Below are positions 2,051 through 17,883 of a stretch of DNA of 17,883 bases, in pieces. The notes beneath the pieces are model-generated. The model was given only the letters and a program-made list of their open reading frames with translations, was not told the DNA's origin and did no database searches. Origin of the DNA: Bifidobacteriaceae bacterium (GTDB lineage Bacteria; Actinomycetota; Actinomycetes; Actinomycetales; WQXJ01). Positions within the stretch are counted from its first letter, which is position 1; each line of letters starts with the position of its first letter. The translations under genes were made by a program, and so were the position numbers. The stretch spans positions 1-17,883 of the forward strand of contig JAISCU010000317.1 in the NCBI GenBank assembly GCA_031265345.1, in the 5' to 3' direction.

Positions 2051-2175
2051 GCGCCGGAGCGGCGTCCGTCGAGGTCTCCTAGTCGGAGCCCTCTTCGATG
2101 AACCGCTCGACCTTGGGTCGTCAGATGTGGCGCATAATGGAGCGGCACACCCATGCCCCTGAAGAAAGGCCATCA

Positions 2176-3102
2176 GTGAGTTCGCACTCCGGAACCAAAG
2201 CCATCATCGCCGCCCTCAGCGCCAACCTTGGAATAGCGGTGACCAAGTTCGTCGCGTTCGCTCTCACCGGCTCGAGTTCCATGCTGGCGGAATCGGTCCA
2301 CTCGGTGGCCGATTCCGGCAACCAACTGCTGCTCCTGTGGGGCGGGAAGGAATCGAAGCGCCGTCCCGACGCGAAGCATCCGTTCGGTTACGGGCGGGGC
2401 CGCTACTTCTGGTCTTTCATCGTCGCGCTGGTGCTGTTCTCGCTGGGCGGGCTGTTCGCGCTCTTTGAGGCCTATGAGAAGCTGAAACATCCCAAAGCCA
2501 TCGAATCGTGGCAATGGGTGCCGATCGCCGTGGTGGCGGCCGGCATCGTCATGGAGGGCCTCTCGCTGCGCACCGCCATCCGCGAGTCCCGGCCTGCCAA
2601 GGGCAGCCAGGGCTGGTTCCGCTTCATCCGCAGTTCAAAATCCCCGGAGTTGCCGGTGGTGCTGCTGGAGGACACGGCCGCGCTGATCGGCCTGGCGCTC
2701 GCTGGCGCGGGCATCGGCGCCACGCTGATCACGGGCGATGGCCGTTGGGACGCCGCCGGGTCAGCCGCCATCGGCGTGCTCCTGGTCGCGGTGGCGGCGA
2801 TCTTGGCGGTCGAGATGAAGTCGCTCCTGTTGGGTGAATCGGCCTCGCCGGAGCATCTGGCGGCCATTGAGCAGGCCCTCGTCGGCGACGGTATCGTCTC
2901 GGTGATTCATCTTCGAGTGATGCACCTCGGCCCCGAGGAACTGCTGGTCGCGGCCAAGATCGAGCCTGAACCGGGGATCGGTCTGACCGCCCTCGCGGAC
3001 GCCATCGACGCCGCCGAGGCCCGCGCCCGCGCCGCCGTCCCGCTCGCCCAGACCATCTACTTGGAGCCGGACTTGCGCCACGCCCCCCAGTCACGCGGCT
3101 AG
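2176..3102 (+). CDS. Cation diffusion facilitator (SLC30A9-like)
   Basis: Integral-membrane metal-ion efflux protein of the CDF family, about 308 residues. GTG 2176 is chosen because AGAAAGG lies six bases upstream and homologues begin close to SGTKAIIAALSAN; ATG codons at 2125 and 2137 are in frame but overlap a possible -10 (CATAAT, 2133-2138) and lack a good ribosome site. The second membrane segment has ESVHSVAD (His42, Asp46), the CDF metal site. The fifth has LLEDTAALIG (Glu165, Asp166) instead of the classic HxxxD, as in the SLC30A9 (ZnT9) branch. A cytoplasmic domain follows residue 220. Substrate is probably Zn(II) or another divalent cation. The stop codon lies at the edge of the IS remnant, so the last few residues may be altered by the insertion. 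Confidence 0.88.
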   Translation: MSSHSGTKAIIAALSANLGIAVTKFVAFALTGSSSMLAESVHSVADSGNQLLLLWGGKESKRRPDAKHPFGYGRGRYFWSFIVALVLFSLGGLFALFEAYEKLKHPKAIESWQWVPIAVVAAGIVMEGLSLRTAIRESRPAKGSQGWFRFIRSSKSPELPVVLLEDTAALIGLALAGAGIGATLITGDGRWDAAGSAAIGVLLVAVAAILAVEMKSLLLGESASPEHLAAIEQALVGDGIVSVIHLRVMHLGPEELLVAAKIEPEPGIGLTALADAIDAAEARARAAVPLAQTIYLEPDLRHAPQSRG

Positions 3103-4415: not shown

Positions 4416-5780
4416 CTAGAAGCCCTCCGCCATGTTGGCGAACCGTGACAGGTGCCCTTGGAAGGCGACTTTGATCTCGCCGATCGGTCCGTTGCGGTGT
4501 TTGGCCAGGATGAGCGTGGCCTCGCCTTTGGCGGCGGCGTCCTCCTGGGAGTCTTGGCGGCTGATCAGAATGACCACGTCGGCGTCTTGCTCGAGCGAGC
4601 CGGACTCCCTCAGATCGGACAGTTCCGGGCGCTTGTTCTCGCGCGCCTCGGCCGACCGGTTCAACTGCGATATCGCCACGACCGGCACTCCGAGCTCCTT
4701 GGCCAGTAGCTTCAAGGCCCGCGAGAATTCGGACACCTCTTGCTGGCGGGACTCGACCCGTTTCCCGGAGGTCATCAGCTGCAGATAGTCGATGATCACC
4801 AGTTTCAGCTCGTTGCGTTGTTTCAGCCGACGGCACTTGGCACGGATCTCCATCAACGACATGTTCGGAGAATCGTCGATGAACAACGGGGCTCGCTTGA
4901 TGTCGCCGATGCGGGACGAGATGCGCTTCCACGAGTCGGTCGGGACGGAGCCCATTCGCAATTGGTTGAGCAGCACGCTGGCTTCGGCGCTGATGAGGCG
5001 TTGGGTGATTTCCTCGCGCGACATTTCGAGCGAGAACAACACCGAGGACATGCCGCCCCGGATCGAGGCCGACCGCGCGAAGTCGAGTCCCAGAGTCGAC
5101 TTGCCTTTTCCGGGACGGGCCGCCACGATCACCATCTGGCCGGCGTGCAGGCCGCCGGTGAGGGAATCGAGGTCGTGGATCCCGGTCGGGATGCCCGTGA
5201 CGTGGTTGGGGGTGGCGGACATCTGCTCGATCTCGTCCAGGACCGGGTCGACAATCGAGCCGATGTGGGCGTAATCCTCGGCGGTGCCGCGCTCGGTCAC
5301 GGCGTAGACCTCGGACTGGGCCGAGTTGACCAGGTCGTCGATGCTCTGGCCGTCGTTGCTGTAGCCGAGTTGCGTGATGCGGGTGCCGGCGTCGACCAGC
5401 CGCCGCAGGACCGCCCGGTCGCGCACGATCTGCCCGTAGTAACCGGCGTTCGCGGCGGTGGGCACCAGCGCCATCAGGTTCGCCAGGTACTGCGCCCCGC
5501 CGATCCGTCCCATCTCCCCGCGCCGGGTCAGTTCCGCCGCGACGGTGACGGCGTCGACCGGCTCCCCGCGGGCGTAGATGTCGGTGATGACCTCGAAGAT
5601 CATCTCGTGCTGGGGCCGGTAGAAGTCGTCGTGTTTGAGGACGGAGATCACATCGGCGATGGCGTCCTTCGACAGCAGCATGGCCCCGAGCGCCGATTGC
5701 TCCGCTTGGATGTCCTGCGGGGGGAGTCGGTCGAACTGGGTGGGCGCGACCACATCGGCCTCGAACTCAGTCACAGACAA
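4416..5780 (-). CDS. dnaB: Replicative DNA helicase DnaB
   Basis: Hexameric 5'-3' helicase that unwinds DNA at the replication fork. The 454 residues show the full architecture: N-terminal domain (about 20-125, LPPQDIQAEQSALGAML) that contacts primase, a linker, and the RecA-like ATPase domain. Walker A is ARPGKGKST (221-229); other motifs are SLEMS (250-254), Walker B VIIDYLQLM (328-336), SQLNRSAEAR (371-380) and KHRNGPIG (427-434). No intein is present, although intein insertion is common in this gene elsewhere. The start is TTG 5780 (GGAG six bases upstream) or GTG 5774 two codons on. The usual neighbours rplI, rpsR and ssb are absent upstream. Lys225 in the P-loop is a mild variant of the common Val. 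Confidence 0.97.
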   Translation of the reverse strand: MSVTEFEADVVAPTQFDRLPPQDIQAEQSALGAMLLSKDAIADVISVLKHDDFYRPQHEMIFEVITDIYARGEPVDAVTVAAELTRRGEMGRIGGAQYLANLMALVPTAANAGYYGQIVRDRAVLRRLVDAGTRITQLGYSNDGQSIDDLVNSAQSEVYAVTERGTAEDYAHIGSIVDPVLDEIEQMSATPNHVTGIPTGIHDLDSLTGGLHAGQMVIVAARPGKGKSTLGLDFARSASIRGGMSSVLFSLEMSREEITQRLISAEASVLLNQLRMGSVPTDSWKRISSRIGDIKRAPLFIDDSPNMSLMEIRAKCRRLKQRNELKLVIIDYLQLMTSGKRVESRQQEVSEFSRALKLLAKELGVPVVAISQLNRSAEARENKRPELSDLRESGSLEQDADVVILISRQDSQEDAAAKGEATLILAKHRNGPIGEIKVAFQGHLSRFANMAEGF

Positions 5781-6643: not shown

Positions 6644-7918
6644 TCAGAAATAGGTGCGCAGCGCTCCCAACACCGGGGCCCCGCTGGCGTGACGGTCTTC
6701 GACTTCGGCGATAACGGGCCACTTGTCGAAGGTTGTGCAGGGATGCGAGAGGCCAAGCTCGACCAGGTCCCCCACGGCCAGTTCAAGACCCGCCTTCCCG
6801 CACTCGAGGTAGGCATGCTGGTCATCGAGGCGCAGAAGACGCGAGGGGCCATTCCCCAAGGCGGCGACCCCGCGGTGGAAGCCCAGCACTGTGGGCAAAC
6901 CATGGTCGCAGCCCAGGTCGCGCAAACCAGCGTCGAGCAGGGCTAGTCCAGGTTCCGGCAGGCTGAGCACGCGCGTCCAGACGCTGAGCGCCGCTGTCAG
7001 GTCGAGATCCGTCTCGGCCCGCGCCTGGTACATGCCATCGTCGTGAGCGACATACACCCCTGGGCGCACCATCAGACGCGCTGAAGTGCCACTAATGCAT
7101 TCCTTGACCAAAGCCACCAACTGAGCCAGGTCTGCCGAGCCGCCGATCGACACAAGGGGCGCCGTCAAGTCGGCGATCTCCGCGATGGCCTGGGCGGCCG
7201 CGGACAAGGAGCGGACGTAACGGCCGTAGCGGTCGGGTTGCGCGCCGGGGTCGGCCACCGCGCCTTCGTAGCCGGCCACGCCGAGCAGATGAACCTGCGG
7301 TCGCCGGGCGGCCATGGCCGCCAGCCTGACCGCTTCGTCGAGGTGCCTCACGCCGGTCCGTCCGCCGTCCGCGCCGATTTCCACCAACACGTCAATCTGG
7401 CTGTTCGCGCCAAGGCCAGTTCCCGTGGGCGGCGCGGCGCAAAGCCGGTCGAGAGCCACATCCGAGTCGATCCAGACAATCACCTGTTCACACGCGCCAA
7501 CGCCGAGCGCTTGGCGGAGCCGGAAGGCAGCGGCCGGCCTGACCAGGTTATTGGCCACTTGGATGCGCGGACATCCGGTCCCCAGAGCCACTGCGAGTTG
7601 ATGCTCGTTGGCCACCGTGATCCCCCAAGCCCCGTGGTCGATCTGTCTTTTCCAGAGCGCGGGGGACATGGTCGTCTTGCCGTGGGGCGCCAACGCGAGG
7701 CCCTGTGCCGCGCACCAGCGCGCCATAGCCGCCAAATTGCGGTCTGTCGGGCGGCGGCCGATGGTGGCTTGAGGAGTCGGGAGGTCCGCCACCCGCAAGC
7801 CGAGAGCGCCGATTCTCCCGAGGGGCGTGGTACCGAACGCGAGGCTCCCCTTGGAACCGGCGGGCAGCGGCTGGGCTGATTCGTGGGCCAGAAAACTGTC
7901 GAGTGGCGTTGACCGCAT
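6644..7918 (-). CDS. DSD1-type PLP enzyme (D-amino acid dehydratase/aldolase)
   Basis: A 424-residue fold-type III PLP enzyme of the D-threonine aldolase / eukaryotic-type D-serine dehydratase family. Lys81 in APHGKTTMSPALW is the expected PLP Schiff-base lysine. Further landmarks are WGITVANEHQ (about 98-107), VLVEIGADGGRTGVR (177-191), GYEGAV (216-221), RPGVYVAHDD (285-294) and the metal-binding His-x-Cys pair in SHPCTTFDKW (His392, Cys394). Such enzymes remove ammonia from D-serine or cleave beta-hydroxy D-amino acids. ATG 7918 is preferred over the longer frame to 8029 because AGGAAG precedes it and the upstream residues are low complexity. It is divergent from the 8106 operon, whose RidA and D-aminoacylase-type genes fit a D-amino acid role. 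Exact substrate unknown. Confidence 0.85.
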   Translation of the reverse strand: MRSTPLDSFLAHESAQPLPAGSKGSLAFGTTPLGRIGALGLRVADLPTPQATIGRRPTDRNLAAMARWCAAQGLALAPHGKTTMSPALWKRQIDHGAWGITVANEHQLAVALGTGCPRIQVANNLVRPAAAFRLRQALGVGACEQVIVWIDSDVALDRLCAAPPTGTGLGANSQIDVLVEIGADGGRTGVRHLDEAVRLAAMAARRPQVHLLGVAGYEGAVADPGAQPDRYGRYVRSLSAAAQAIAEIADLTAPLVSIGGSADLAQLVALVKECISGTSARLMVRPGVYVAHDDGMYQARAETDLDLTAALSVWTRVLSLPEPGLALLDAGLRDLGCDHGLPTVLGFHRGVAALGNGPSRLLRLDDQHAYLECGKAGLELAVGDLVELGLSHPCTTFDKWPVIAEVEDRHASGAPVLGALRTYF

Positions 7919-8022
7919 GGTGATTCGCTTCCTGTGTCGGCCTCTGATGGGACCTCGGTGGGACCCTGGTGGGTTGGTTCTTTGTCGTTCTCGCCGGGAG
8001 GCTGGAGGGAGGCACCCGGACA

Positions 8023-8085
8023 TGGTCATGATCTGTCATTTAGTGTAAGCTACTATCGTTGACTGAAAGCCTCTATCTATCGTTG
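8023..8085 (+). promoter_or_regulatory. Candidate promoter/operator of the catabolic operon
   Basis: TGGTCA (8023-8028) and TAAGCT (8046-8051) are separated by 17 bases and could be -35 and -10. The -10 lies inside AGTGTAAGCT (8042-8051), which recurs as AGTGTAAGTT at 15705-15714 in the promoter of the binding-protein gene. CTATCGTTG is repeated exactly at 8053-8061 and 8077-8085 (24 bases apart) and appears as the near match CTATCGATG (minus strand) at 15715-15723. These are likely sites for a shared regulator. The minus-strand PLP gene must also be transcribed from this gap, but its promoter was not resolved. Confidence 0.45.
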
Positions 8086-8105
8086 CCCTACCATAAGGAG
8101 CCAGG

Positions 8106-9050
8106 ATGACAGAACTGCACGGCGTGCTGCCAGTACTGTCCACACCCTTCACCGAGTCGGATGATATCGACCGGCCAGCGTTGATCAAAGAAACCGAATG
8201 GCTGCTCGCCGCCGGAGTCGACGGCTTGGTCATAGCGATGGTTTCGGAGATTCTCCGGCTCGATCCCGGCGAGCGCATGGCCCTGGTCGAGACGACCATA
8301 GCGGCTGTCGCGGGACGCCGCCCGGTCGTGGTCTCGGTGGGAGCCGAATCGACCGCCCAGTCGGTCCGGTTGGCGCTGCACGCCGTGGATGCCGGAGCTG
8401 CCGCCGTGATGGCGAATCCGCCCGTGTCCACCAGGCCGACCGAAGCCGAGCTGCGGAAGCACTTTGAGACCGTGGCTGACGCGACCGGCCCTGTGCCCCT
8501 GATCGTTCAAGACGCCTCGGGATACGTCGGGCAGGCGGTTCCCCTCGGGCTGATGACGAGCCTGCTCGAGCGATTCGGCGAACGCAAGATCCGCTTCAAG
8601 CCCGAGGCCGAACCACTCGGGCCGCAGTTGTCCGCGCTCATCGGCGCGACCGGGGGCCGGGCGCGGGTCTTCGAGGGAAGCGGTGGGCGCAGTTTGCTCG
8701 ACAGCCATCGGCGCGGTGTGATCGGCACGATGCCTGGGTCCGACCTCGCCTGGGCGATGGTGTCCCTGTGGCGAGCACTGGAAGAGGGCGATTCGAGCCG
8801 CGCCTATGGCATTCAGGCGGCCCTGGCGCCGATCCTGACGTTCGTTTCGTCTTTGGATTCCTATGTCAGGGTCGAGAAACACTTGCTTCGAATCCAAGGT
8901 GTCTTCGACAACGAACGTCAACGTGGACCGACCGACTTCATTCTGGACGGACAAAGCTGCCGGGAACTGGCAATACTGCTGGGCCGACTGGTCACAGCTT
9001 GTGGCCGGGACGCTGCCATTTCGACTCGTGACCTGCAGCAGGTCGCATGA
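8106..9050 (+). CDS. DHDPS/NAL-family aldolase or dehydratase
   Basis: A 314-residue class I aldolase-fold protein, the usual length for the dihydrodipicolinate synthase family. Lys165 in IRFKPEAEP is the expected Schiff-base lysine, and SGGRSLLDSHRRGVIGTMPG (191-210) is the typical family segment. The residues that give true DapA its activity are different: GTTGE is replaced by AMVSE (about 44-48), and the Tyr of the YNxP segment by PLIVQDASGY (131-140). It is therefore probably not a lysine-pathway enzyme but a pyruvate-lyase or dehydratase acting on a 2-oxo acid made by the operon. ATG 8106 follows AAGGAG at five bases. Its stop overlaps the next gene by four bases. Confidence 0.8.
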   Translation: MTELHGVLPVLSTPFTESDDIDRPALIKETEWLLAAGVDGLVIAMVSEILRLDPGERMALVETTIAAVAGRRPVVVSVGAESTAQSVRLALHAVDAGAAAVMANPPVSTRPTEAELRKHFETVADATGPVPLIVQDASGYVGQAVPLGLMTSLLERFGERKIRFKPEAEPLGPQLSALIGATGGRARVFEGSGGRSLLDSHRRGVIGTMPGSDLAWAMVSLWRALEEGDSSRAYGIQAALAPILTFVSSLDSYVRVEKHLLRIQGVFDNERQRGPTDFILDGQSCRELAILLGRLVTACGRDAAISTRDLQQVA

Positions 9051-9790
9051 AGCGCATCAAGGAGCGCTGGCGGATAGGATTACCCGCTCGGGGCTTGTGG
9101 TCCATGTCCGCCGACCCGGTGGTGGCCGAACTGATGGCAGCGAGTCCGGCCGATTATGTTTGCGTCGACCTGCAGCACGGGATGGCGACGTTCGCTGAGC
9201 TCCCCTCGATCGTCCAAGCGATGAGGGCCAGTGGTCGCGTTCCATTGGTCCGGGTTGGCGGTGTCGACCAAGCGCAAGCGATGCGTGCGCTCGACCTCGG
9301 CGCCGGTGGAGTGATTGTGCCGATGGTCAACACCGCCGCCGACGCCTGCCTGGTGGCCTCGGCGTGCCGTTACCCGAACCGAGGCGTGCGCAGTTGGGGC
9401 CTGCCCTGGTCGGGGATCGCGCTGGAGCCCAACCCCATTCCCGCCGCCTTGGACGGCCAGGTCCTCTGCATCGCTCAAATCGAGACGCCCGAGGCGCTTG
9501 CGAATGCCGAGGCGATCACGGCCACAGATGGGATCGACGCCATTTACATAGGTCCGAACGACCTCGCGTTGCAGTGCGGATTAGGCCGGGCGACCTACCG
9601 TGACTCGGATCGGGTCCACGAGCTACTGGACGAGATAATCGCGGCCGCGCGAACGGTTGGCAAACCGGTCGGTCTGCATTGTGAGGACCCCGCCATGGCG
9701 GAATACTGGATCGCTCGGGGCGTGCAAATGGCGACAATTGGTCACGACCTGTCCGTCCTGGCGAACGCGGTCAGGGCGCTGTTCGAATGA
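9047..9790 (+). CDS. HpcH/HpaI-family class II aldolase
   Basis: A 247-residue TIM-barrel aldolase. Family residues are in place: His44 in VDLQHG (general base), Arg69 in PLVRV (carboxylate binding), Glu146 in AQIETPEA and Asp172 in IGPNDLA (divalent metal ligands). Relatives split 2-keto-3-deoxy sugar acids or 4-hydroxy-2-oxo acids into pyruvate and an aldehyde, or run the reverse. The start overlaps the preceding stop as ATGA, so expression is coupled to the DHDPS-family gene; two pyruvate-type aldolases in a row are unusual and suggest a branched or long carbon skeleton. The substrate cannot be read from the sequence. Confidence 0.88.
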   Translation: MKRIKERWRIGLPARGLWSMSADPVVAELMAASPADYVCVDLQHGMATFAELPSIVQAMRASGRVPLVRVGGVDQAQAMRALDLGAGGVIVPMVNTAADACLVASACRYPNRGVRSWGLPWSGIALEPNPIPAALDGQVLCIAQIETPEALANAEAITATDGIDAIYIGPNDLALQCGLGRATYRDSDRVHELLDEIIAAARTVGKPVGLHCEDPAMAEYWIARGVQMATIGHDLSVLANAVRALFE

Positions 9791-9800
9791 GAGGGTGGAA

Positions 9801-10169
9801 ATGAGACACGCGGTCAGCGGAACCGAGCCGTCAGGCTCCTATTCGCCGGGAGTGTTGGCCACAGGTCGGTTGCTATTCGTCTCGGGTCAAGGCCCGCTGG
9901 TGGGCGGCCAAGTGGTCCCAGGCACGGTGGCCGAGCAGACTCGGGTCACCTTGCGTAACCTGGAGGCCGTGTTGAACGCGGGCGGAGCCGACCTCGGTGA
10001 TGTGGTGCGGTGCGGAGTGTACCTGGCCGACATGGGGACGTTCGCCGAGATGGATGCGGCATACCGGGAGTTCTTCGGCGACGTTCCTCCCGCCCGGACC
10101 ACCGTAGGGGCCGAACTCGCAGGCATCGGCGTTGAAATCGACTGCGTCGCGGCTGTGGATCACCCCTGA
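9801..10169 (+). CDS. RidA-family enamine/imine deaminase
   Basis: This 122-residue protein belongs to the Rid (YjgF/YER057c/UK114) family. Arg99 in PPARTTV corresponds to the substrate-binding Arg105 of E. coli RidA, and Glu112 in VEIDCV matches the conserved C-terminal Glu. RidA hydrolyses reactive 2-aminoacrylate and related enamines/imines released by PLP-dependent dehydratases or amino acid oxidases, giving 2-oxo acids and ammonia. Its presence fits the divergent D-serine dehydratase-like gene. ATG 9801 has AGGGTGG just upstream; the open frame extends further 5' but overlaps the aldolase gene there. The stop shares its last base with the next start (TGATG). Confidence 0.9.
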   Translation: MRHAVSGTEPSGSYSPGVLATGRLLFVSGQGPLVGGQVVPGTVAEQTRVTLRNLEAVLNAGGADLGDVVRCGVYLADMGTFAEMDAAYREFFGDVPPARTTVGAELAGIGVEIDCVAAVDHP

Positions 10170-11215
10170 TGGGCGCCGAGTCCTGGTTGGTGGCCACCTA
10201 CGGCCCACAAGGCGGGATCAGTCTGGTCGGCAGCGACGCGGCTGGCGCTGCCGCGGCCAACGCTGTCGTCGGGGGCGGGCCAGCGTCCGGTCTGGCGGTA
10301 CCGGATTGCTGTTGCTTGGCGCCCGGGATCGTGCCAGGCGTCTTTCACGGCGTCGCCGGGAATGAGCACAGACCAGGAGTGCTGGTGACATTCCAAGTGA
10401 AGCATGACGGCGTTCGGCTGGTGAATGAAACGCCTTCCGGGGGATCAGAGCCGTGCCATCTCGCGGTCATTGGCGAAGGAGCCGCCGCCACGCTGGCTGT
10501 TGCCAACTACTCCAGCGGCACTGTCGCATTCTTCCCGTTGGGCGCGGACGGATATCCCCAGGCGCCATCGGACGTGATCGCACTTCCGAGTGGAGGGAAG
10601 GGCCTGGTTCCCCGCCAGGACGCGCCCCATCCGCACTTCGTGGCCCGATGGCCGGGCGACCGAGGAAGCGCAGCGACCTTGGTGGTGGACTTGGGGTCGG
10701 ACCAGATTTGGCGGGTCAGCGGCCGGGGAGGGCAGCGCCAGGTCAGCCGCTTCGCGTCATTGGCCCCGGGCACCGGGCCACGCCACTTGGCGATCCTGGG
10801 AGAGAGTATGGCCGTCTCTGGGGAATTGAGCGGGCAAATCGCTTTCGGTGGGCCTGATGCTTGGAACTATGGGTCCGCCACTGGCGTGATCGGTTCGGGG
10901 CCGGTGTATCCGGGCGACCTGCGGGCACTCGGGACGGATCGTGTCGCGGTCGCCAATCGGGGAAGGGGCTCGGTCGCCGTCCTCAAGTGCGATCAGCACG
11001 CGCCACCGGAATTGATCCATGAATGGGTCATGCCTGGGTCCTGGCCGCAACAACTCTGGGAGCGGGACGGTCGGCTCCTGGTGGTCGACCGCGACGGTGG
11101 CCGGATTGTCTGCTGCGACCCCGTTTCGGGAGGTCAATGGCCCATAGTGAGCGGGCTTGCTTCGCCGATGTGGGCGTTGCCATTGCGCCCGGCCGGTGAA
11201 AGGGACATGACATGA
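10169..11215 (+). CDS. Beta-propeller lactonase-like protein
   Basis: A 348-residue protein of the 6-phosphogluconolactonase-like seven-bladed propeller family. Characteristic blade segments are SEPCHLAVI followed by LAVANYSSGTVAFFPL (about 93-124), RQDAPHPHFV (about 149-158) and GTGPRHLAI. No signal peptide is seen, so it should be cytoplasmic and may hydrolyse a sugar lactone produced by a dehydrogenase such as the SDR at 12888. The N-terminal blades are less typical and include three consecutive cysteines (47-49). The start is ATG 10169, overlapping the ridA stop. The stop overlaps the following start as ATGA. Lactonase activity is inferred from the family, where many members are untested. 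Confidence 0.75.
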   Translation: MGAESWLVATYGPQGGISLVGSDAAGAAAANAVVGGGPASGLAVPDCCCLAPGIVPGVFHGVAGNEHRPGVLVTFQVKHDGVRLVNETPSGGSEPCHLAVIGEGAAATLAVANYSSGTVAFFPLGADGYPQAPSDVIALPSGGKGLVPRQDAPHPHFVARWPGDRGSAATLVVDLGSDQIWRVSGRGGQRQVSRFASLAPGTGPRHLAILGESMAVSGELSGQIAFGGPDAWNYGSATGVIGSGPVYPGDLRALGTDRVAVANRGRGSVAVLKCDQHAPPELIHEWVMPGSWPQQLWERDGRLLVVDRDGGRIVCCDPVSGGQWPIVSGLASPMWALPLRPAGERDMT

Positions 11216-12798
11216 CGGCGGGGCCAACGTACCGCCTGGCGGGCGGTTTAGTGGCGGACGGGGACGGCGGCATCGCACGCCTCGCGGATGTCGTTATCTC
11301 CGATGGCCGGGTTGCCGCGATCACTCGGCCCAGTCGTGCGGACGGCGCTGAGGCGGACGATTGCCGAACCATCGACTGCGCGGGCAGGGTCGTGATGCCA
11401 GGGATGATCGACATCCACAGCCACGCGGACGATGCGATTTTCGATGACTCCGTGCAACATGCGTTGCTGCGCCAAGGTGTGACCACGGTGGTCGTTGGCC
11501 AAGACGGTGTCTCTTATGCGCCGGGCGACGGGTCCTACGCCGGGACTTACTTCGAGGGTCTGATCGGCCGGCCCAGGCATTACCGGGGCGACGGGGTAGC
11601 GGGGCTGTTGAGCGGTTACGACGGGCGCACCAGAGTCAACGTGGCCTATGCGGTGCCGCTTGGAACGGTCCGGCAGGTGGTCGCGGGCCACCGCTCCGGG
11701 CCGGCCACGCCGGTCGAATTGGCGGCTATGGAGCGACTGGTGCGCCAGGGGCTTGAAGAAGGCGCTGTCGGTGTCTCGAGCGGATTGGACTACACCCCTG
11801 GGCTGTTCGCGGACGCCGCCGAGTTGGGCCGTATGGCGGCGGTCGCGGCCGGGTTCGACAAGCCGTACATCACACACATGCGCGGGGGCTATGAGGACAA
11901 CGCGCCGGTCGGCATCTCCGAGGCTCTGGCCATCGCGCGGTCGAGTGGGGCAGCCGTCCACATCTCGCATTTCCATGGTGATCCAGGCATGGTGCTGGGC
12001 GAGGTCGAGCGTCTGAACGCGGGCGGGTGCCGGGGAACCTTCGACGCCTACCCGTACCGTCGCGGTTGCACGTTGCTGGCGATGCTGACGATGCCGCCTG
12101 AACTGATGGCGCGCGGCTCGGAAGAAGTGGTCAGGTTGTTGGAGGATCGGGGGTTCGCGAGGGGTCTGGCGACCGAGTGGTTCCCCCAGGTGGCGCGTCG
12201 CCCCGACCTCGGCCCGGCATGGATGGATCGAGTGACCTATTCGTCCGTCGACGCTGACGCCCTGCGCGGTATCGAGGGCCTGACTGTCGCCGAGGCTGGC
12301 CGCGAACTGGGAGAGGATCCACGACTGACGATCTGCCGGGTCCTGGCGGCCACCCAGTTGCGGGCGGTCGTGGTGGCCCGGAACCCAAGACCCCGCACCG
12401 ACTCCGAACTCGCCCAGATCTTCGAGTCTCCCCATCACACGGGCGGTTCTGACGGCATCTACCTCGGGGGCAAACCGCACCCACGTGGTTGGGGGACATT
12501 CGCGCGATACCTGTCGCGCTTCGTCCGCCAACGTGGTGATTGGGATTGGGCGCAGGCGGCGGTTCACTTGGCCGCGCGGCCCGCCGACATCCTGGGCTGG
12601 AGTCACCGCGGGCGCATCCAACCGGGAGCGATTGCCGATGCCGTCGTGTTGGATCCGGCCGCCGTGCGCGACACGGCGACCTACCGTCATCCGCGCCGCT
12701 TGGCGCAGGGAGTGCTGGAGATCTTCGTGACCGGTCGCCACGTGCTCCATGAAGGCGAGTTGACCGACGAATACGCTGGTCAAGGAATCCGCGGCTGA
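11212..12798 (+). CDS. D-aminoacylase-type amidohydrolase
   Basis: A 528-residue metal-dependent hydrolase of the amidohydrolase superfamily, close to N-acyl-D-amino-acid deacylases. Metal and catalytic residues are visible: His69 and His71 in DIHSHAD, His222 in THMRG, His253 in VHISHFH and catalytic Asp414 in HHTGGSDG, followed by KPHPRGWGTF. The bridging Cys of classical D-aminoacylase (VVGNCG) is replaced by Asp98 in VVGQDGVS, so metal number or substrate may differ. The family removes the acyl group from N-acyl-D-amino acids; related members hydrolyse other amides. It overlaps the lactonase gene by four bases. With the divergent PLP enzyme and RidA it suggests release and breakdown of a D-amino acid. 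Confidence 0.85.
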   Translation: MTAGPTYRLAGGLVADGDGGIARLADVVISDGRVAAITRPSRADGAEADDCRTIDCAGRVVMPGMIDIHSHADDAIFDDSVQHALLRQGVTTVVVGQDGVSYAPGDGSYAGTYFEGLIGRPRHYRGDGVAGLLSGYDGRTRVNVAYAVPLGTVRQVVAGHRSGPATPVELAAMERLVRQGLEEGAVGVSSGLDYTPGLFADAAELGRMAAVAAGFDKPYITHMRGGYEDNAPVGISEALAIARSSGAAVHISHFHGDPGMVLGEVERLNAGGCRGTFDAYPYRRGCTLLAMLTMPPELMARGSEEVVRLLEDRGFARGLATEWFPQVARRPDLGPAWMDRVTYSSVDADALRGIEGLTVAEAGRELGEDPRLTICRVLAATQLRAVVVARNPRPRTDSELAQIFESPHHTGGSDGIYLGGKPHPRGWGTFARYLSRFVRQRGDWDWAQAAVHLAARPADILGWSHRGRIQPGAIADAVVLDPAAVRDTATYRHPRRLAQGVLEIFVTGRHVLHEGELTDEYAGQGIRG

Positions 12799-12802
12799 GC
12801 GA

Positions 12803-12818
12803 CGGGCAGGACTGCCCG
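12803..12818 (+). other. Intergenic hairpin between amidohydrolase and SDR genes
   Basis: CGGGCAG-GA-CTGCCCG is a perfect inverted repeat starting five bases after the amidohydrolase stop. No T run follows, so it is not a classical terminator. In the 89-base gap, the widest within this gene row, it may lower read-through or protect the upstream transcript end. Confidence 0.4.
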
Positions 12819-12887
12819 GCGCGTCACCGGCTGAACCAAAGACCAGGCCAGAAGGCGAATTTGAGGATTGATCGCAGGAGGAAAGAC

Positions 12888-13706
12888 ATGGCAGAACTCG
12901 AACGGACCGGCGAACGGACCGGCGAACGGCCCGGCGAGCTGACCGGCGAAGTCGCGTTGATAACAGGTGCTGGGCAGGGCATTGGCGAGGTCGTGGCGGC
13001 GAGATTCGTCCGGGCGGGCGCGGCAGTCGTGGTGTTGGACGTCAACGGCCGGGCCGCCGAGTCTGTGGCTGCCAGGATCGGTCATGCGATCGCCGTCGAG
13101 GCAGACGTGACCAGCGAGTCCGACCTGGAACGGGCCTGGGCCGCCGCACGCGAGGCCTTCTCGGACGTGTCGATTGTCGTGAACAACGCTATTACCTGCT
13201 GTGACGCCGATTTCCTTGATATCTCGCGGGCGGAGTGGTCGCGCGACATCGCCGTGACCCTGACCGGAGCGTTTCTCACGGCCAAGCTGGCATTGCCGGC
13301 CATGATCGCGGCCGGGCGCGGCGTGATCATCAACATGAGTTCGGTCAATGCCCTGTCCTATTTCGGCAACGAGTCCTATTCGGCTGCCAAGGCGGGGCTG
13401 CTGTCGCTCACCCGCTCCTTGGCCGTGCGGTTCGGGCCAGATGGCATCAGGGCGAACGCGATTGTTCCAGGCACCATCGTGACGCCGGTTTGGGACCATC
13501 GGATCAGTGCCGACCCGGACGTTCTCGACAAGGCCTTGGCTTGGTATCCGTCAACCCGCCTGGGCCGGTCCGAAGACGTCGCGGAGGCGGCTTTGTACTT
13601 GGCGTCTGACAGGGCGGCCTGGGTCAATGGGGTGGCGCTGCCGGTCGACGGAGGGCTGCTGGCGGGCAATATCCGCTTGGCCCGGGACATCGTGCCGGAA
13701 CAGTAG
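12888..13706 (+). CDS. SDR-family NAD(P)-dependent oxidoreductase
   Basis: A 272-residue classical short-chain dehydrogenase. It has the cofactor motif TGAGQGIG (26-33), Asp51 at the end of the second strand (suggesting NAD preference), VNNA (98-101), catalytic Ser152 in NMSSVN and the Tyr164-x-x-x-Lys168 pair in YSAAK, and PGTIVTP (195-201). ATG 12888 follows a very strong AGGAGGAAAGAC site. The residues before the Rossmann fold are a Gly-Glu-Arg-Thr-like tail encoded by four 12-base tandem units (12900-12947). It follows the amidohydrolase by 89 bases and likely belongs to the same transcript. Role: oxidising a sugar or hydroxy-acid intermediate, perhaps to a lactone for the propeller protein; substrate unknown. 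Confidence 0.88.
   Translation: MAELERTGERTGERPGELTGEVALITGAGQGIGEVVAARFVRAGAAVVVLDVNGRAAESVAARIGHAIAVEADVTSESDLERAWAAAREAFSDVSIVVNNAITCCDADFLDISRAEWSRDIAVTLTGAFLTAKLALPAMIAAGRGVIINMSSVNALSYFGNESYSAAKAGLLSLTRSLAVRFGPDGIRANAIVPGTIVTPVWDHRISADPDVLDKALAWYPSTRLGRSEDVAEAALYLASDRAAWVNGVALPVDGGLLAGNIRLARDIVPEQ
12900..12947 (+). repeat. 12-base tandem repeat in the SDR N-terminus
   Basis: Four in-frame units based on GAACGGACCGGC: the first two identical, the third with one change and the fourth more diverged. They encode Glu-Arg-Thr-Gly-type repeats. Because the unit is a multiple of three, copy changes by slippage would lengthen or shorten the tail without breaking the frame. Confidence 0.85.
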
Positions 13707-13727
13707 CGGCGAGCGGGGTCCGCCCGT

Positions 13728-14717
13728 TCAGCGGTCGGCCGTTACGGATTCGTACGCTCGCCTCGCCTCGGCCACTCGATCCAGCATTTCAAGGTGGAGC
13801 AGCCTGGTGCCGGCGGTCGGAGGCACCCAAACTGTGTTCATGAAGCCCAATAGGCGCTCGGGGCTCAACCGCGCCGCGGCGAAGCCGGCGGTCTCGGCCA
13901 GGTTGTTGTAGGGCGGGAACGCGCTGGCAGCCGGGATCTGGTCGAAGCCCGCCTCGTCCAGGTCTAGGTAGGTCATGTAGGCGGTGTGGGCGTCGTGCGA
14001 GAGCGGCTTCGGGCGTCCGGACTCGTCGCCAGTGAAGACCGGTTCGTAGTACCAGTTCGACTGCACTATCGACGTGGGCATGCGACTCAGGTAGTCAACC
14101 GGGTGGTGCCAGGCGCGGTCGGACCAGACCCATGGGCGTGACCCCCCTTCCTCGACCCGTGCGGCGAAACGCAGGAGGTCGTGCCACCAGAGGTCGCCCT
14201 CGCGGATGACGGTGTGGTGGTAGTACTTTTGGTTCTCCCAGGTCTCCTCGTCCATGCCGAGGTGGAAGAACCGGGGCCTGTCGAAAATGGCGCAGACCTC
14301 ATCGATCAAGTCGTCGACGACCTGGTAGTACGTTCTCGAGGAGACCATCCGGGAGTACTCGCCGAGCCAGGCGTCATGGGAGGCCGACAGGTTGAGCTTT
14401 GGCAGGGCCTCGATTCCCAGGCTTCGCAGACGGGCGATCTCGTCTTTGAGCCGGGCGACCGACCAGGCGCCTTCGACCGCCAGCTCGGGATGGGATTCGT
14501 AGACGATGCCGTCCGCCAGGTCGAGCACCATCGCGTTGACGCCCTTGGCGGGGGCTTTGGCGACGATTTCCTCCCAGACCGGGTCGGCCACCTCGAGCCG
14601 GGGCGAGTACCGGAAATAGGGCTCGGGGGCGTCAGTGAAATACCTCTCGCACGGGTACGCGTCCGACTTGTCGAGGTAGAGGTTGTAACCAATGTGGATG
14701 AGGACACCCCAAAGCAT
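13728..14717 (-). CDS. GH20-like TIM-barrel protein, putative glycosidase
   Basis: The 329-residue product has a barrel-like alternation and a HLGMDEE motif (152-158) resembling the HxGxDE catalytic Asp-Glu signature of GH20 beta-N-acetylhexosaminidases. Other features fit a carbohydrate site: ALPKLNLSASHDAWL (104-118), many aromatic residues (GDLWWHDLL 174-182, PWVWSDRAWHH 195-205, SNWYYEP 220-226). There is no signal peptide, so it is cytoplasmic and would act on an imported substrate. ATG 14717 follows AAAGGA; the much longer frame to 15245 runs antisense through the regulator and is rejected. It converges with the SDR gene (21-base gap) and diverges from the IclR gene. Similar proteins are mostly uncharacterised; hydrolysis of a glycan is inferred. 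Confidence 0.6.
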   Translation of the reverse strand: MLWGVLIHIGYNLYLDKSDAYPCERYFTDAPEPYFRYSPRLEVADPVWEEIVAKAPAKGVNAMVLDLADGIVYESHPELAVEGAWSVARLKDEIARLRSLGIEALPKLNLSASHDAWLGEYSRMVSSRTYYQVVDDLIDEVCAIFDRPRFFHLGMDEETWENQKYYHHTVIREGDLWWHDLLRFAARVEEGGSRPWVWSDRAWHHPVDYLSRMPTSIVQSNWYYEPVFTGDESGRPKPLSHDAHTAYMTYLDLDEAGFDQIPAASAFPPYNNLAETAGFAAARLSPERLLGFMNTVWVPPTAGTRLLHLEMLDRVAEARRAYESVTADR

Positions 14718-14780
14718 GGCCCGAATCCTTTCTTCTGGTCGCGCGCCCGTGAGTTCGGAGTGGAGCGGCGAGGGAATGAG

Positions 14781-14826
14781 ATGACAGCACCTATGATTAC
14801 ACATCGCGCAACCATGTGTCATATGA
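14781..14826 (+). promoter_or_regulatory. Dyad operator candidate in iclR/GH20 divergent gap
   Basis: ACACAT (14799-14804) and ATGTGT (14814-14819) form an inverted repeat with a 9-base spacer. A wider pair, ATGACA (14781-14786) and TGTCAT (14817-14822), encloses it. The local AT content is well above the surroundings. The position between two divergent genes, one for an IclR-family regulator, makes it a likely autoregulatory site. No clear -35/-10 hexamers were fixed. Confidence 0.45.
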
Positions 14827-14875
14827 TGAAAGAAACTGACCCGTTCGCCTGTTGTTCCTGATAGGATGCCAGCCC

Positions 14876-15673
14876 ATGAATGGAACTCCCGTCGTCTCCG
14901 ACCAGGGCGGCTTCGCCAGCATCGACCGAGTCGTGTCGGTGATCGATGCCGTGGCCGCGGCCGGAGCCGGCACGTTGGCGCAGCTGGCGCGGGCCACCGG
15001 CCTGAGCGAGCCCACCACCCTTCGCTACCTGAAGGCGCTGCGCAAGCACCACGTGGTGAGCCGGGACACCAACGATGGCCGTTACCGCCTCGGCGCTCGG
15101 CTCCATCAGTGGGGAGCGGCTTCGCCGGCGGAGATGGACCCCCGGTCAGCCGCCGAGGCGCCGCTGGCGCAGTTGGCCGCCGACTTGGGCGAGACCGTCG
15201 AATTGGCCGGTGTCGAAGGCGGCCAACTGGTCGTCTTGGCCTCACATCCTGGGACTCAGGCGTTGATCAAGGTCGCGCATGTCGGCCAGGCCGAGCGCTG
15301 GCATGCCACCGCGGTCGGCAAGGCCCTGCTCGCCAACGCGTCGCCGGATTTGGTCCAGCAGGTCATGGACGGCGTCGAGTTCGATGTCTTCACGCCCAAC
15401 ACCCTCGACAGCGAGGAGCGTCTGAAGGTCGAGTTGGAGCGTTGTCGGTCGCGGGGATATGCCGTGGACGATGAAGAGAGCGAAACCGGGCTGCGTTGCA
15501 TCGGGGTTCCGGTGCGGGGTTGGACCGGGGAGTGTCAGTACGCCATCTCGGCGAGCGGGCCGACTTACCGCATGCCGCGGGCCAGGGAGCGCGACGTGGC
15601 CGACCGCTTGGAGCAGGCCGCGCGCCAAATTGAGCAGGCACTGGGCGCGCCGCTAGACGGAACGGACGCCTGA
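14876..15673 (+). CDS. IclR-family transcriptional regulator
   Basis: A 266-residue regulator of standard length. The N-terminal winged helix-turn-helix (about 13-75) shows the family layout: SIDRVVSVIDAVAA, TLAQLARATGLSEPTTLRYL, then the wing DGRYRLG. The C-terminal effector domain (about 85-255) contains HATAVGKALLA and GIPV-like segments (GLRCIGVPV) that bind small organic acids in relatives. ATG 14876 is chosen with AGGA nine bases upstream; an in-frame TTG at 14852 is less likely. It sits between the GH20-like gene and the ABC transporter and is the only regulator in the catabolic region, so it is the obvious candidate to control both promoters that share the AGTGTAAG motif. Confidence 0.92.
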   Translation: MNGTPVVSDQGGFASIDRVVSVIDAVAAAGAGTLAQLARATGLSEPTTLRYLKALRKHHVVSRDTNDGRYRLGARLHQWGAASPAEMDPRSAAEAPLAQLAADLGETVELAGVEGGQLVVLASHPGTQALIKVAHVGQAERWHATAVGKALLANASPDLVQQVMDGVEFDVFTPNTLDSEERLKVELERCRSRGYAVDDEESETGLRCIGVPVRGWTGECQYAISASGPTYRMPRARERDVADRLEQAARQIEQALGAPLDGTDA

Positions 15674-15685
15674 GGCTTTCATTAG

Positions 15686-15723
15686 TTGACATTAACTGTC
15701 TGAGAGTGTAAGTTCATCGATAG
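15686..15723 (+). promoter_or_regulatory. Promoter of the sugar ABC transporter genes
   Basis: TTGACA (15686-15691) is a perfect -35, followed after 17 bases by TAAGTT (15709-15714) as -10. The -10 is part of AGTGTAAGTT, shared with 8042-8051. CATCGATAG (15715-15723) is the near reverse complement of the CTATCGTTG repeats near 8053. The -35 itself lies in an imperfect dyad AGTTGACATTAACT, a possible repressor site. Confidence 0.65.
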
Positions 15724-15781
15724 CCGCATGGCGGCCTTTCAACGTCGCACGGCTTCGGTTCTAGCTAATGGAGGTCCCTCG

Positions 15782-17044
15782 ATGAAGTGGTTCATAACGT
15801 CAACCAGAGCACCGGCAGTGGTCCTGGCCGCCGCTTTGGCCCTGCCTTGGGTGGTGTCGGGTTGCGGCGGCGCCGGGAGCGCTGGCGACGCGAAAGAACT
15901 GGCCCTCTGGATTCCGCCGAACTTTGAGGACGGCTCCGACCTGAAGTTCTGGGACGACCAACTCAAAGCCTTCGAGGAGGACAATGGCGTGGACGTCAAG
16001 GTGACCATCATCCCCTGGGACACCTACGAGGAGCGCATGCTCGCGGGATTCTCCGGCAGCCAAGCGCCGGACCTCACGTACATGTATGAAGAGATGATGG
16101 GTGATTACGTCAGTCGCGGACAACTGGCCAACTTCGCTCCTTATCTCTCGGACCAGGACAAGGCGAACTACAGCTATCTGCCGTTGGCGCAGATCGACGG
16201 CCAACAGATCGGCCTGCCCATGATCGTGGGAGCGGCACGCGTCATGTTCTACAACCGGACGATCCTCGACCAGATCGGCGCCGAGCCGCCCGCGACTTGG
16301 GACGATTTCATCGAGGTGGGTCTGAAAGCCAAGGAAGCCGGTCATGAGGCCTTCGCCCAAGCATGGGGCGACCCGGCCAAGACCGGCGCGCTCGACGGCT
16401 TCTGGCCATTCCTGTGGCAGGCGGATGGCGAGGTCCTGGCTCCCGACGGCACGGCCGCCGCGTTCAACTCGCCCGAAGGCGTGGCCGCGCTGCAATACCT
16501 GCACGACTTGCGCTTCGAACACGGTTTGCTGCCCGAAGCGTCGACGGCGCTGACGGTGGCCGAGCTGAACCAACAGTTCATGGACGGGAAGTTGCTGTTC
16601 CGCCTGGCGGCGGAATCGGCAGCCGCTTCGTGGGACGAGGCGGGAATCGACTGGGGATTCGTGCCCTCGTTGAAAGGCAAGCAGGAGGGGACATACGTGG
16701 TTTGCGACTCATTGGTCCTGCCTGAGTCGGCGCCCGACAAGGAGGCCAGCACCAAGCTGGCGAACTACTTGCTGAGCGCGGACGTCATGGAGGCTTTCCA
16801 CGCGAAGTCGCCCTATCCGCCGGTGAGCGCCGACGAACCCTATTCGGGCAACCCCGAGTTTAGAGAATTGTACGAACAAGACTCGGCCATTTTGCACAAT
16901 CTGCCTGTGGCCGCCAATACGGCGCCGATGTATGACGCGCTGTTCGACAACATTCAAGCAATGTTCCTCGGCCAGAAGGACCCGGCCCAAGCGTTGGCGG
17001 ACGCGGCGGACGCGGCCGATGCCGCTCTGGCGAAGAACAAGTGA
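15782..17044 (+). CDS. Sugar ABC transporter substrate-binding lipoprotein
   Basis: A 420-residue extracellular solute-binding protein (family 1, CUT1-type). A signal peptide runs to lipobox VVSGC with Cys28. The mature part follows the family pattern: ELALWIPPNF, VDVKVTIIPWDTYEERML with GSQAPDLTYMYE, MIVGAARVMFYNRTIL, PPATWDDFIE, and a C-terminal KLANYLLSADVMEAF. It captures the imported sugar or oligosaccharide outside the cell and passes it to the permeases. ATG 15782 has GGAGG eight bases upstream; the frame's earlier ATG at 15728 would add residues in front of the signal peptide and lacks a ribosome site. The permease gene starts 16 bases after the stop. Binding specificity cannot be read directly. 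Confidence 0.93.
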   Translation: MKWFITSTRAPAVVLAAALALPWVVSGCGGAGSAGDAKELALWIPPNFEDGSDLKFWDDQLKAFEEDNGVDVKVTIIPWDTYEERMLAGFSGSQAPDLTYMYEEMMGDYVSRGQLANFAPYLSDQDKANYSYLPLAQIDGQQIGLPMIVGAARVMFYNRTILDQIGAEPPATWDDFIEVGLKAKEAGHEAFAQAWGDPAKTGALDGFWPFLWQADGEVLAPDGTAAAFNSPEGVAALQYLHDLRFEHGLLPEASTALTVAELNQQFMDGKLLFRLAAESAAASWDEAGIDWGFVPSLKGKQEGTYVVCDSLVLPESAPDKEASTKLANYLLSADVMEAFHAKSPYPPVSADEPYSGNPEFRELYEQDSAILHNLPVAANTAPMYDALFDNIQAMFLGQKDPAQALADAADAADAALAKNK

Positions 17045-17060
17045 CCGGCTGGCGCCAAGC

Positions 17061-17804
17061 ATGAAGGCAGTCGTGACGCCCGTCGGCCGGCGTGTCCGGG
17101 CTACGGGAGCGCTCTATGTTCTGCCCGCGCTGGCGGTTCTCGTGGTGACTTCACTGTTGCCAACGCTCCTGGGCGCCTATTACAGCCTGACCGACTATTC
17201 GGGCCTCGGCGACAAGCATTTCGTGGGCTTCGACAATTATGTCCAGATGTTCCACGACCCGGCTGTGGGCAAGGCGGCTTGGGTGACCGTTGTCTTTACC
17301 ATCATAACGGTCCCGGTGCAGACTGTCCTGTCAATGCTGCTGGCCGAGATCCTCGCCAAGACCATGCGAAATTGGTTTGGCTCCGTCGCCCGATCAGTGT
17401 TATTCATACCGGTGATCGCATCAATGGTGCTGGTCGGAACGGTCTGGCGGATCTTGCTTTCGAACGAAGGCTTTGTGAACGGCTTGCTGCGAGCGTTCGG
17501 GATCGCGTCGGTCAACTGGTTGGGCTCGCCGATGTGGGCCTTGCCAACCGTGGCAATGATTGCGATCTGGAAAGACATCGGCTATTTCCTAGTGATCTAT
17601 TACGCCGCAATTCTTGACGTGCCAAAGGACCTTTACGAATCTGCGGCGCTGGATGGCGCCGGGCCTTTCAAGCGTTTCTGGCACATAACGATGCCCCAGA
17701 CGAGGCATGCGACGGTGCTGATAGTGATAGTCGGAACCATGTGGTCTTTCCAAACCTTCGACATAATGAGGTTTTCTCACCAGGGCGGGTTGGTTGATGT
17801 CTGA
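17061..17804 (+). pseudogene. Sugar ABC transporter permease, 3' end disrupted
   Basis: MalF-type (CUT1) inner-membrane permease. The first membrane helix (LYVLPALAVLVVTSLLP), the periplasmic loop DNYVQMF and further helices are normal. The EAA loop that contacts the ATPase is present as YESAALDGAGPFKRFWHITMP. After MWSFQTFDIM (about 17769) homology stops; relatives continue with a VMTxGGP segment and 50-70 more residues including the last helix. Here eleven unrelated residues lead to a stop at 17802-17804, giving 247 residues in place of about 290-310. Insertion of a mobile element, rearrangement or a contig artefact would each explain this. The second permease expected next is not in the window. 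Confidence 0.8.
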
Positions 17805-17883
17805 TTACTGGGGGTGACCTGCGTGGACGCGGCGTGGCGTGCGTGGATGTGGGGCCCTCGGCCGGGAAGCTGGTCTTGTTACC
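17769..17883. other. Unidentified sequence replacing the permease 3' end
   Basis: From about 17769 the DNA no longer encodes permease sequence in any frame that was checked by eye. It begins near GAGGTTTTCTCACCAGG and is rich in GTGG-type runs, unlike the coding DNA before it. It may be the end of an insertion sequence whose body lies beyond the window. No family was recognised from these 115 bases. Confidence 0.4.

Follow-up and report, generated by a model that had tools for sequence, protein, structure and literature searches.

What would a bacterium degrade with a cluster of genes for a sugar ABC importer, an IclR regulator, a GH20-like protein, a D-aminoacylase-type amidohydrolase, a D-serine-dehydratase-type enzyme, a RidA protein, a short-chain dehydrogenase/reductase (SDR), a propeller lactonase and two pyruvate-type aldolases? 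The question is raised by positions 1 to 17,883 of contig JAISCU010000317.1 from a Bifidobacteriaceae bacterium (assembly GCA_031265345.1), and this whole stretch of 17,883 nucleotides is called the window. An earlier note, made from the letters alone, had named these gene types, and profile searches found all of them encoded in the window, with corrected starts (Table 1). We tentatively propose, with confidence just short of even, that the cluster, carried by what its nearest relatives suggest is an actinobacterium, encodes a pathway that degrades an N-acetylhexosamine, most likely N-acetylglucosamine (GlcNAc) and possibly N-acetylgalactosamine (GalNAc), largely without phosphorylation.

The direct observations are the gene content, the linkage, the folds and motifs of the proteins, and a shared candidate operator. 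From these we infer every substrate and the order of the steps. Judged by family and context, the ABC importer would take up an N-acetylhexosaminide (step 1), the GH20-like protein would release the N-acetylhexosamine in the cytoplasm (step 2), the SDR would oxidise it at C1 to the 1,5-lactone (step 3), and the lactonase would open this to a 2-acetamido-2-deoxy-hexonate, which is an N-acyl-D-amino acid (step 4). For the next two steps we draw on the ong pathway described below and on linkage to kinase and aldolase genes: the amidohydrolase would remove acetate (step 5), and the pyridoxal phosphate (PLP)/metal enzyme would take water and ammonia off the hexosaminate to give a 2-keto-3-deoxy-hexonate, with RidA speeding hydrolysis of the imine (step 6). 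Finally, again by family and context, the dihydrodipicolinate synthase (DHDPS)-type aldolase, the HpaI aldolase or both would yield pyruvate and glyceraldehyde (step 7). The IclR protein may control all three transcription units.

The earlier note knew of no standard pathway with this set of genes. A close functional precedent does exist, namely the ong pathway of Pseudoalteromonas prydzensis, which the text of PMC9537276 presents as biochemically proven in marine bacteria. There, OngA is a GH20 hexosaminidase, OngB converts 2-acetamido-2-deoxy-gluconate (GlcNAc1A) to 2-amino-2-deoxy-gluconate (GlcN1A) and acetate, OngC is a fold-III PLP enzyme that turns GlcN1A into 2-keto-3-deoxy-gluconate (KDG) and ammonia, OngD is a RidA protein needed for growth on GlcNAc1A, and KdgK phosphorylates KDG (PMC9537276). 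GlcNAc1A is at once a sugar acid and an N-acyl-D-amino acid, and a conjugate is therefore unnecessary. An obligatory union of a sugar with an N-acyl-D-amino acid in the substrate is not supported, since one N-acetyl-hexosaminic acid, for instance GlcNAc1A, can account for both halves. We found the ong gene set on two Pseudoalteromonas plasmid records (L082 and L083), and the L082 deacetylase matched PpOngB at 823 bits. The seven L082 proteins, rather than those of strain ACAM 620, served as our reference, and E values against it are for a set of seven. Against this set, the PLP enzyme of the window was 33.5% identical to OngC over 382 amino acids (E 2e-47) and its RidA was 34% identical to OngD over 102 amino acids. 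By the ong-cluster criterion in the text of PMC9537276 (at least four homologues with E<1e-5 and >30% identity), these two proteins are the only ones that count, and the window is not an ong cluster.

To place the window among its relatives, we aligned 15 amidohydrolases (alignment A1), retrieved 221 stretches with one genome per species, and kept the best 80 as loci. Profile hidden Markov models (HMMs), built mostly from the 80 loci, were run on these, on loci from a class sample of 394 genomes (28 loci with an amidohydrolase of at least 490 bits, genome G001 excluded) and on 40 control windows, which were hand-placed at round coordinates and not random; one control came from G158, a genome without a sampled amidohydrolase locus. 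A further 11 loci (group C) were hand-picked from weaker amidohydrolase matches. The bit cut-offs were our own choice. Because the 80 loci are closely related to each other (several are also cut by contig ends), the counts and p values given here are not independent.

The PLP enzyme was found in 78 and RidA in 77 of the 80 loci, and genes like KDG kinase (KdgK) and 2-keto-3-deoxy-6-phosphogluconate (KDPG) aldolase (Eda) in 45 and 50, with one or the other in 51. The remaining profiles were rarer: DHDPS 3, lactonase 5, SDR 8 and a major facilitator superfamily (MFS) symporter 32. Eight of the nine profiles were absent from all 40 control windows and the SDR profile hit one. Group C had the PLP enzyme in 3 of 11 loci, RidA in 7, KdgK in 3, Eda in 2, SDR in 2 and the others in none. 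A chance gathering of genes was ruled out by the co-occurrence counts in the 80 loci against the 40 control windows. As far as context tells, the sequence of deacylation, deamination and enamine clearance by RidA that the earlier note had put forward holds. The amidohydrolase, PLP enzyme and RidA are almost always together. With KdgK-like or Eda-like neighbours in 51 of the 80 loci, the product of the PLP step is most likely a 2-keto-3-deoxy-hexonate; such neighbours also speak for an N-acetyl-hexosaminic acid as the substrate. The representatives of these kinase and aldolase clusters matched the KDG/KDGal kinase and Eda models below the curated cut-offs (171 of 440 bits and 156.0 of 156.05 bits, respectively).

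Two variants of the locus can be recognized. We called a locus SDR-type when an SDR of at least 180 bits, a cut-off set after the 150-bit count was known, lay on the strand of the amidohydrolase and no more than 3 kb from it. Five of the 80 loci were of this type (L001, L002, L003, L009 and L013), and in each the frames of the SDR and the amidohydrolase abut, with start minus end from -22 to +20; in the window, the SDR begins 62 or 89 bases downstream of the amidohydrolase, by the start chosen. A lactonase was present in 4 of these five, a sugar-type binding protein in 3 and an MFS symporter in none. The corresponding numbers were 0, 3 and 28 in the 51 KdgK/Eda-type loci and 1, 1 and 4 in the other 24. 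Fisher p values, without correction for kinship, were 1.4e-5 for the lactonase (1.5e-4 with L002 and L003 counted once); for the binding protein p was 0.007 and for the symporter 0.051. The pattern is consistent with uptake of the acid in one variant and, in the other, uptake of the sugar followed by its oxidation inside the cell. The window resembles the latter, SDR-type variant, the rarer of the two, which usually has the lactonase and no kinase.

Much of the set recurs in L001, a Microbacterium metagenome-assembled genome, in which BLAST found the DHDPS, PLP enzyme, IclR, RidA, lactonase, amidohydrolase and SDR genes; L001 and the window both have the DHDPS/PLP pair in divergent orientation and the order RidA-lactonase-amidohydrolase-SDR. 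For the six-gene core at 8106-13706, whose co-conservation the earlier note had considered, the picture is mixed: none of the 80 loci carried all six genes, and L001 has all except the HpaI aldolase. The window lactonase is 30-40% identical to those of L001, L002, L003 and L013. L009 ends at a contig end inside its amidohydrolase gene. RidA and lactonase genes stand at the start of a second contig from that genome (L090/L196), followed by a frame that resembles an aldose 1-epimerase by eye. In L002, a ROK-family kinase and a SIS protein (best models GlmS and GlcN6P deaminase, below their cut-offs) stand beside a sugar ABC importer. Across 119 loci, SDR relatives adjoin the amidohydrolase gene in eight, the five named above and L159, L186 and L192 from the class sample, where the two frames overlap by four bases. 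The lactonase family is common (130 of the 394 class genomes at E 1e-20). In G001, lactonase and amidohydrolase genes lie side by side, and the G001 lactonase was part of the bait alignment. The earlier view that SDR, lactonase and aldolases together resemble oxidative sugar-acid breakdown agrees with this context, as far as it tells.

A rival reading, which we hold to be unlikely, is a route that begins with lytic polysaccharide monooxygenases (LPMOs). C1-oxidised chito-oligosaccharides would be imported, the GH20-like protein would free GlcNAc1A, the lactonase would open its lactone form, and the SDR would act elsewhere, for example on the keto-deoxy intermediate or on the GlcNAc half. LPMO action has been proven to supply ong bacteria with GlcNAc1A (PMC9537276, in its text), GlcNAc1A partly occurs as the lactone, and OngA is itself a GH20 enzyme. 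However, this route leaves unexplained why the SDR adjoins the amidohydrolase in 8 of 119 loci and why the lactonase accompanies it. KdgK/Eda loci often have a symporter rather than a sugar importer (28 of 51), and no LPMO family was seen among the 15 window proteins scanned.

In the pathway that we propose, the keto-deoxy acid would go to the aldolases. The DHDPS protein has a lysine aligned with a lysine of 3fkk, which we take to be the Schiff-base lysine, a feature of YagE-like non-phosphorylative KDG aldolases. DHDPS relatives occurred in three of the 80 loci (L001, L006 and L036) and never with KdgK or Eda. This is expected if the DHDPS gene replaces them; with only three loci, it is weak by itself. 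The HpcH/HpaI protein has a hydroxyketoacid aldolase as its nearest solved relative, and YfaU is also listed. It is possible, though improbable in our view, that the pathway ends differently, with the DHDPS protein as a keto-deoxy-acid dehydratase and HpaI as the only aldolase, or with the SDR as a keto-deoxy-acid dehydrogenase. Among solved proteins, the DHDPS protein indeed matches L-2-keto-3-deoxyarabonate dehydratase best and has a VQDA stretch in common with it, and SDR family searches named no specific substrate family; the presence of DHDPS relatives where the kinase/aldolase pair is absent (the three loci) and the company that the SDR keeps with the lactonase speak against such an ending. 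Along with the DHDPS-type gene, L006 (3610-4890, a model match) and L036 (11254-12918, the same cluster) have a gene like glutamate-1-semialdehyde aminotransferase, and L036 carries an amino-acid-type binding protein.

For the proposed deacetylation, the amidohydrolase was compared with solved proteins, and PpOngB, a carbohydrate deacetylase, was returned alongside D-aminoacylases. The protein has the (beta/alpha)8 amidohydrolase fold and the D-aminoacylase-type beta-domain of that structural group. The catalytic aspartate (OngB Asp368) is D414 and OngB His68 and His70 are H69 and H71, all invariant; residue numbers of OngB were verified on the 9kb1 sequence. The metal ligands of OngB are Cys97, His222 and His252 (PMC12017989, in its text). 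Both of these histidines are kept in the window protein, and in the alignment it retains the tyrosine and arginine of the alpha-carboxylate site. A lower-scoring branch of amidohydrolases with a GQDG motif (L188, L190 and L191; 3 of the 11 group C loci) was also beside a strong PLP-enzyme match, and kinase and Eda-like genes are present in L188 and L191.

In the PLP enzyme, the PLP lysine lies in PHGKTT and the metal motif HPC in SHPCTTFDKW, so that the features of Zn-type D-serine dehydratases, a His-x-Cys metal motif and a PLP lysine, are present. According to the text of PMC4401734, His/Cys marks D-serine dehydratase and His/Asp D-threonine aldolase. Among 102 PLP enzymes, 89 had His-x-Cys, 7 had another letter and 6 were unmatched, four of which, when printed, showed SHPC. 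We predict that the PLP enzyme is a hexosaminate (D-glucosaminate-type) dehydratase/deaminase. That the substrate is a sugar joined to an N-acyl-D-amino acid, or that the core uses ordinary N-acyl-D-amino acids such as N-acetyl-D-serine, also seems improbable: the amidohydrolase has the fold and part of the active site of D-aminoacylases, including their threonine as Thr287, and OngC also deaminates D-serine and D-threonine (PMC9537276, in its text), yet linkage to KDG-kinase-like and KDPG-aldolase-like genes (51 of 80) and the SDR and lactonase would be unexpected for amino acids.

The regulatory region adds a further link among the genes that we assign to N-acetylhexosamine use. A related 16-base motif of the TGTC......TGWAAG type is found in all three control regions, at the four sites of Table 1. 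At the single word length used (16), the three-way match with the fewest mismatches had 11 in total, a value reached by none of 300 dinucleotide-preserving shuffles (lowest 14, median 18). A matrix derived from the four sites themselves gives them scores of 17.7-20.1, against 10.6 for the next-best site in the window. The IclR protein is 59% identical by BLAST to that of L001; its best NCBIfam model was BhcR and the next KdgR, both under the cut-off. Maltose-binding proteins are among the solved matches of the solute-binding protein. The permease stops early, 79 bases short of the contig end; the remaining importer genes are outside the window. In the region 17761-17883, the 79 bases after the stop bear no likeness by eye to permease sequence, and an error at the contig end or an insertion is possible.

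For the GH20-like gene we took 13728-14717 (minus strand, 329 amino acids) instead of the 505-amino-acid open reading frame reaching up to 15245, in which no Pfam or NCBIfam family, PF00728 included, was matched (Pfam E 0.001). The predicted structure of the shorter protein (mean pLDDT 92.9) matches GH20 hexosaminidases. It has the GH20 barrel and, as HLGMDE, the HxGxDE signature of the GH20 family, with no obvious signal sequence. Equal contig sizes (53,366 and 69,559) suggest that the nearest relatives of the amidohydrolase and of the GH20-like protein occur together on two metagenome contigs. The GH20-like family is large (2834 hits, of which the best 120 were examined) and spread over several phyla, with few Pfam matches; its members are often named 'Tat pathway signal protein' and some carry PF00728.

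A number of observations weigh against the N-acetylhexosamine pathway and have to be set beside those above. Linkage was weaker in the 28 class-sample loci (PLP enzyme 20, RidA 17, KdgK 9, Eda 6, either of the two 9, SDR 4, MFS symporter 1), where DHDPS and lactonase were absent. Sugar-type binding proteins occurred in 7 of the 80 loci and also in 2 of the 40 control windows. The SDR-type class depends on its cut-off, as 150 bits would add L005 (163.9 bits, same strand, 1.2 kb, no lactonase). The lactonase bait search, which scored only candidates with the most words in common, gave nothing above 120 bits except the window's own protein and listed no lactonase on the contigs carrying the nearest amidohydrolases. 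BLAST with the window proteins found relatives of the GH20-like gene in none and of HpaI in one (L028) of the 80 loci; step 2 and part of step 7 thus rest on this window and, in the case of the GH20-like gene, on the equal sizes of the two metagenome contigs. The OngA-type GH20 of L082 is barely detectable as a relative of the GH20-like protein (21% identity, E 0.009). We did not find the operator motif in L001, and the candidate operator is hence a prediction for this organism only. The dehydratase match of the DHDPS protein, which ranks above YagE, belongs here as well.

The core enzymes also differ from those of the ong pathway. Identity of the amidohydrolase to OngB is only 26% (E 3e-37 against the L082 set), and the protein is not an OngB: Asp98 stands at the place of metal ligand Cys97, with GQDG replacing GNCG (the metal motif was unscorable in 21 of 120 amidohydrolases). 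The specificity residues Ser292 and Gln298 are Thr287 and Thr293 in the alignment, and OngB Lys254 faces a gap (His255 by ungapped count). Judged by bit score, the PLP enzyme of the window does not seem close to the group of OngC and 3gwq: in matches to 3gwq it reached 167 bits and OngC 402 bits.

The text of PMC9537276 states that catabolism of GlcNAc, GalNAc, N-acetylmannosamine (ManNAc) and N-acetylmuramic acid (MurNAc) begins with phosphorylation; by its criteria the complete GlcNAc1A pathway occurs only in Gammaproteobacteria and one Betaproteobacterium, and its main text does not mention actinobacteria. Neither an ong-type pathway in Actinobacteria nor a route through a GlcNAc C1-dehydrogenase was found in the literature searched, which included few subscription papers and no supplements; the C1-dehydrogenase matches examined concerned UDP-GlcNAc dehydrogenase. 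We put forward, with somewhat less than even confidence, a complete amino-sugar pathway in Actinomycetota that never phosphorylates and runs through C1 oxidation, delactonisation, deacetylation, deamination and cleavage, with an Asp-for-Cys subfamily of deacetylases. If this is true, Actinomycetota possess their own form of the GlcNAc1A pathway, which in one lineage starts with the free sugar. Functions would be suggested for many proteins named 'N-acyl-D-amino-acid deacylase' or 'amino acid deaminase', and genome-based prediction of amino-sugar use would change.

Table 1. Genes and candidate operators of the cluster, in positions of the window
Feature	Position	Strand	Family or remark
PLP fold-III enzyme (D-serine dehydratase/OngC-like)	6644..8029	-	PF14031; second ATG at 7918
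Candidate IclR operator TGTCATTTAGTGTAAG, in the region from which the PLP-enzyme and DHDPS genes diverge	8034..8049	+	
DHDPS-family class I enzyme, predicted non-phosphorylative 2-keto-3-deoxy-hexonate aldolase	8106..9050	+	PF00701
HpcH/HpaI class II pyruvate aldolase	9047..9790	+	PF03328
RidA family enamine/imine hydrolase, OngD-like role predicted	about 9801..10169	+	PF01042
7-bladed propeller lactonase, predicted opener of N-acetylhexosamino-1,5-lactone	10169..11215	+	PF10282
D-aminoacylase-fold amidohydrolase, predicted N-acetyl-hexosaminate deacetylase	11212..12798	+	PF07969
SDR dehydrogenase, predicted C1 oxidation of N-acetylhexosamine	TTG 12861 or ATG 12888 to 13706	+	PF13561
Single-domain GH20-like protein, predicted beta-N-acetylhexosaminidase	13728..14717	-	HLGMDE motif, fold match
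Candidate IclR operator TGTCATATGATGAAAG	14817..14832	+	
IclR-family regulator	14852 or 14876 to 15673	+	PF01614 and PF09339
Candidate IclR operator TGTCAACTAATGAAAG	15676..15691	-	
Candidate IclR operator TGTCTGAGAGTGTAAG	15697..15712	+	
Sugar-type ABC importer solute-binding protein	15728 or 15782 to 17044	+	PF13416/PF01547
ABC permease, early end	17061..17804	+	PF00528

Outside the cluster, the window holds a DDE transposase remnant (PF01609; 3228-4319, minus strand, GC 0.77), flanked by a cation efflux gene (2098-3102) and dnaB (4416-5780). Among the 80 loci, a gene like an enolase-superfamily sugar-acid dehydratase was seen in L020, L065, L068 and L078 (11564-12910) and adjoins the amidohydrolase in L020 and L078. 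A 138-amino-acid protein (L005, 11569-11985), possibly rhodanese-like by eye, was present in 11 of them.

Several known systems are comparable in part. Non-phosphorylative Entner-Doudoroff and L-rhamnose-type oxidative pathways follow the same logic of dehydrogenase, lactonase and keto-deoxy aldolase as the window, and they use a sugar-acid dehydratase where the window has a deacetylase and a PLP deaminase. The D-serine deaminase/dehydratase family (3gwq and the chicken enzyme 3anu) and BhcC share PF14031, the PLP lysine and His-x-Cys with the window enzyme, which scores 88 bits with the BhcC model against a cut-off of 690. A known enzyme deaminates phosphorylated glucosaminate to a keto-deoxy acid, as in the proposed PLP step, but its substrate is phosphorylated. 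Compared with PpOngB (PDB 9kb1 and 9kb3; PMC12017989, in its text), the window amidohydrolase has a longer insertion. The ong cluster is similar to the window in its D-aminoacylase-fold deacetylase, fold-III PLP deaminase, RidA and GH20-type protein, and also in its KDG-type product, which for the window is a prediction. In the window, however, the regulator is of the IclR rather than the RpiR family, an ABC importer takes the place of an SSS symporter, the SDR and lactonase are extra, and aldolases stand in place of the KDG kinase; its three core enzymes are 26-34% identical to those of ong, and their relatives are mostly actinobacterial.

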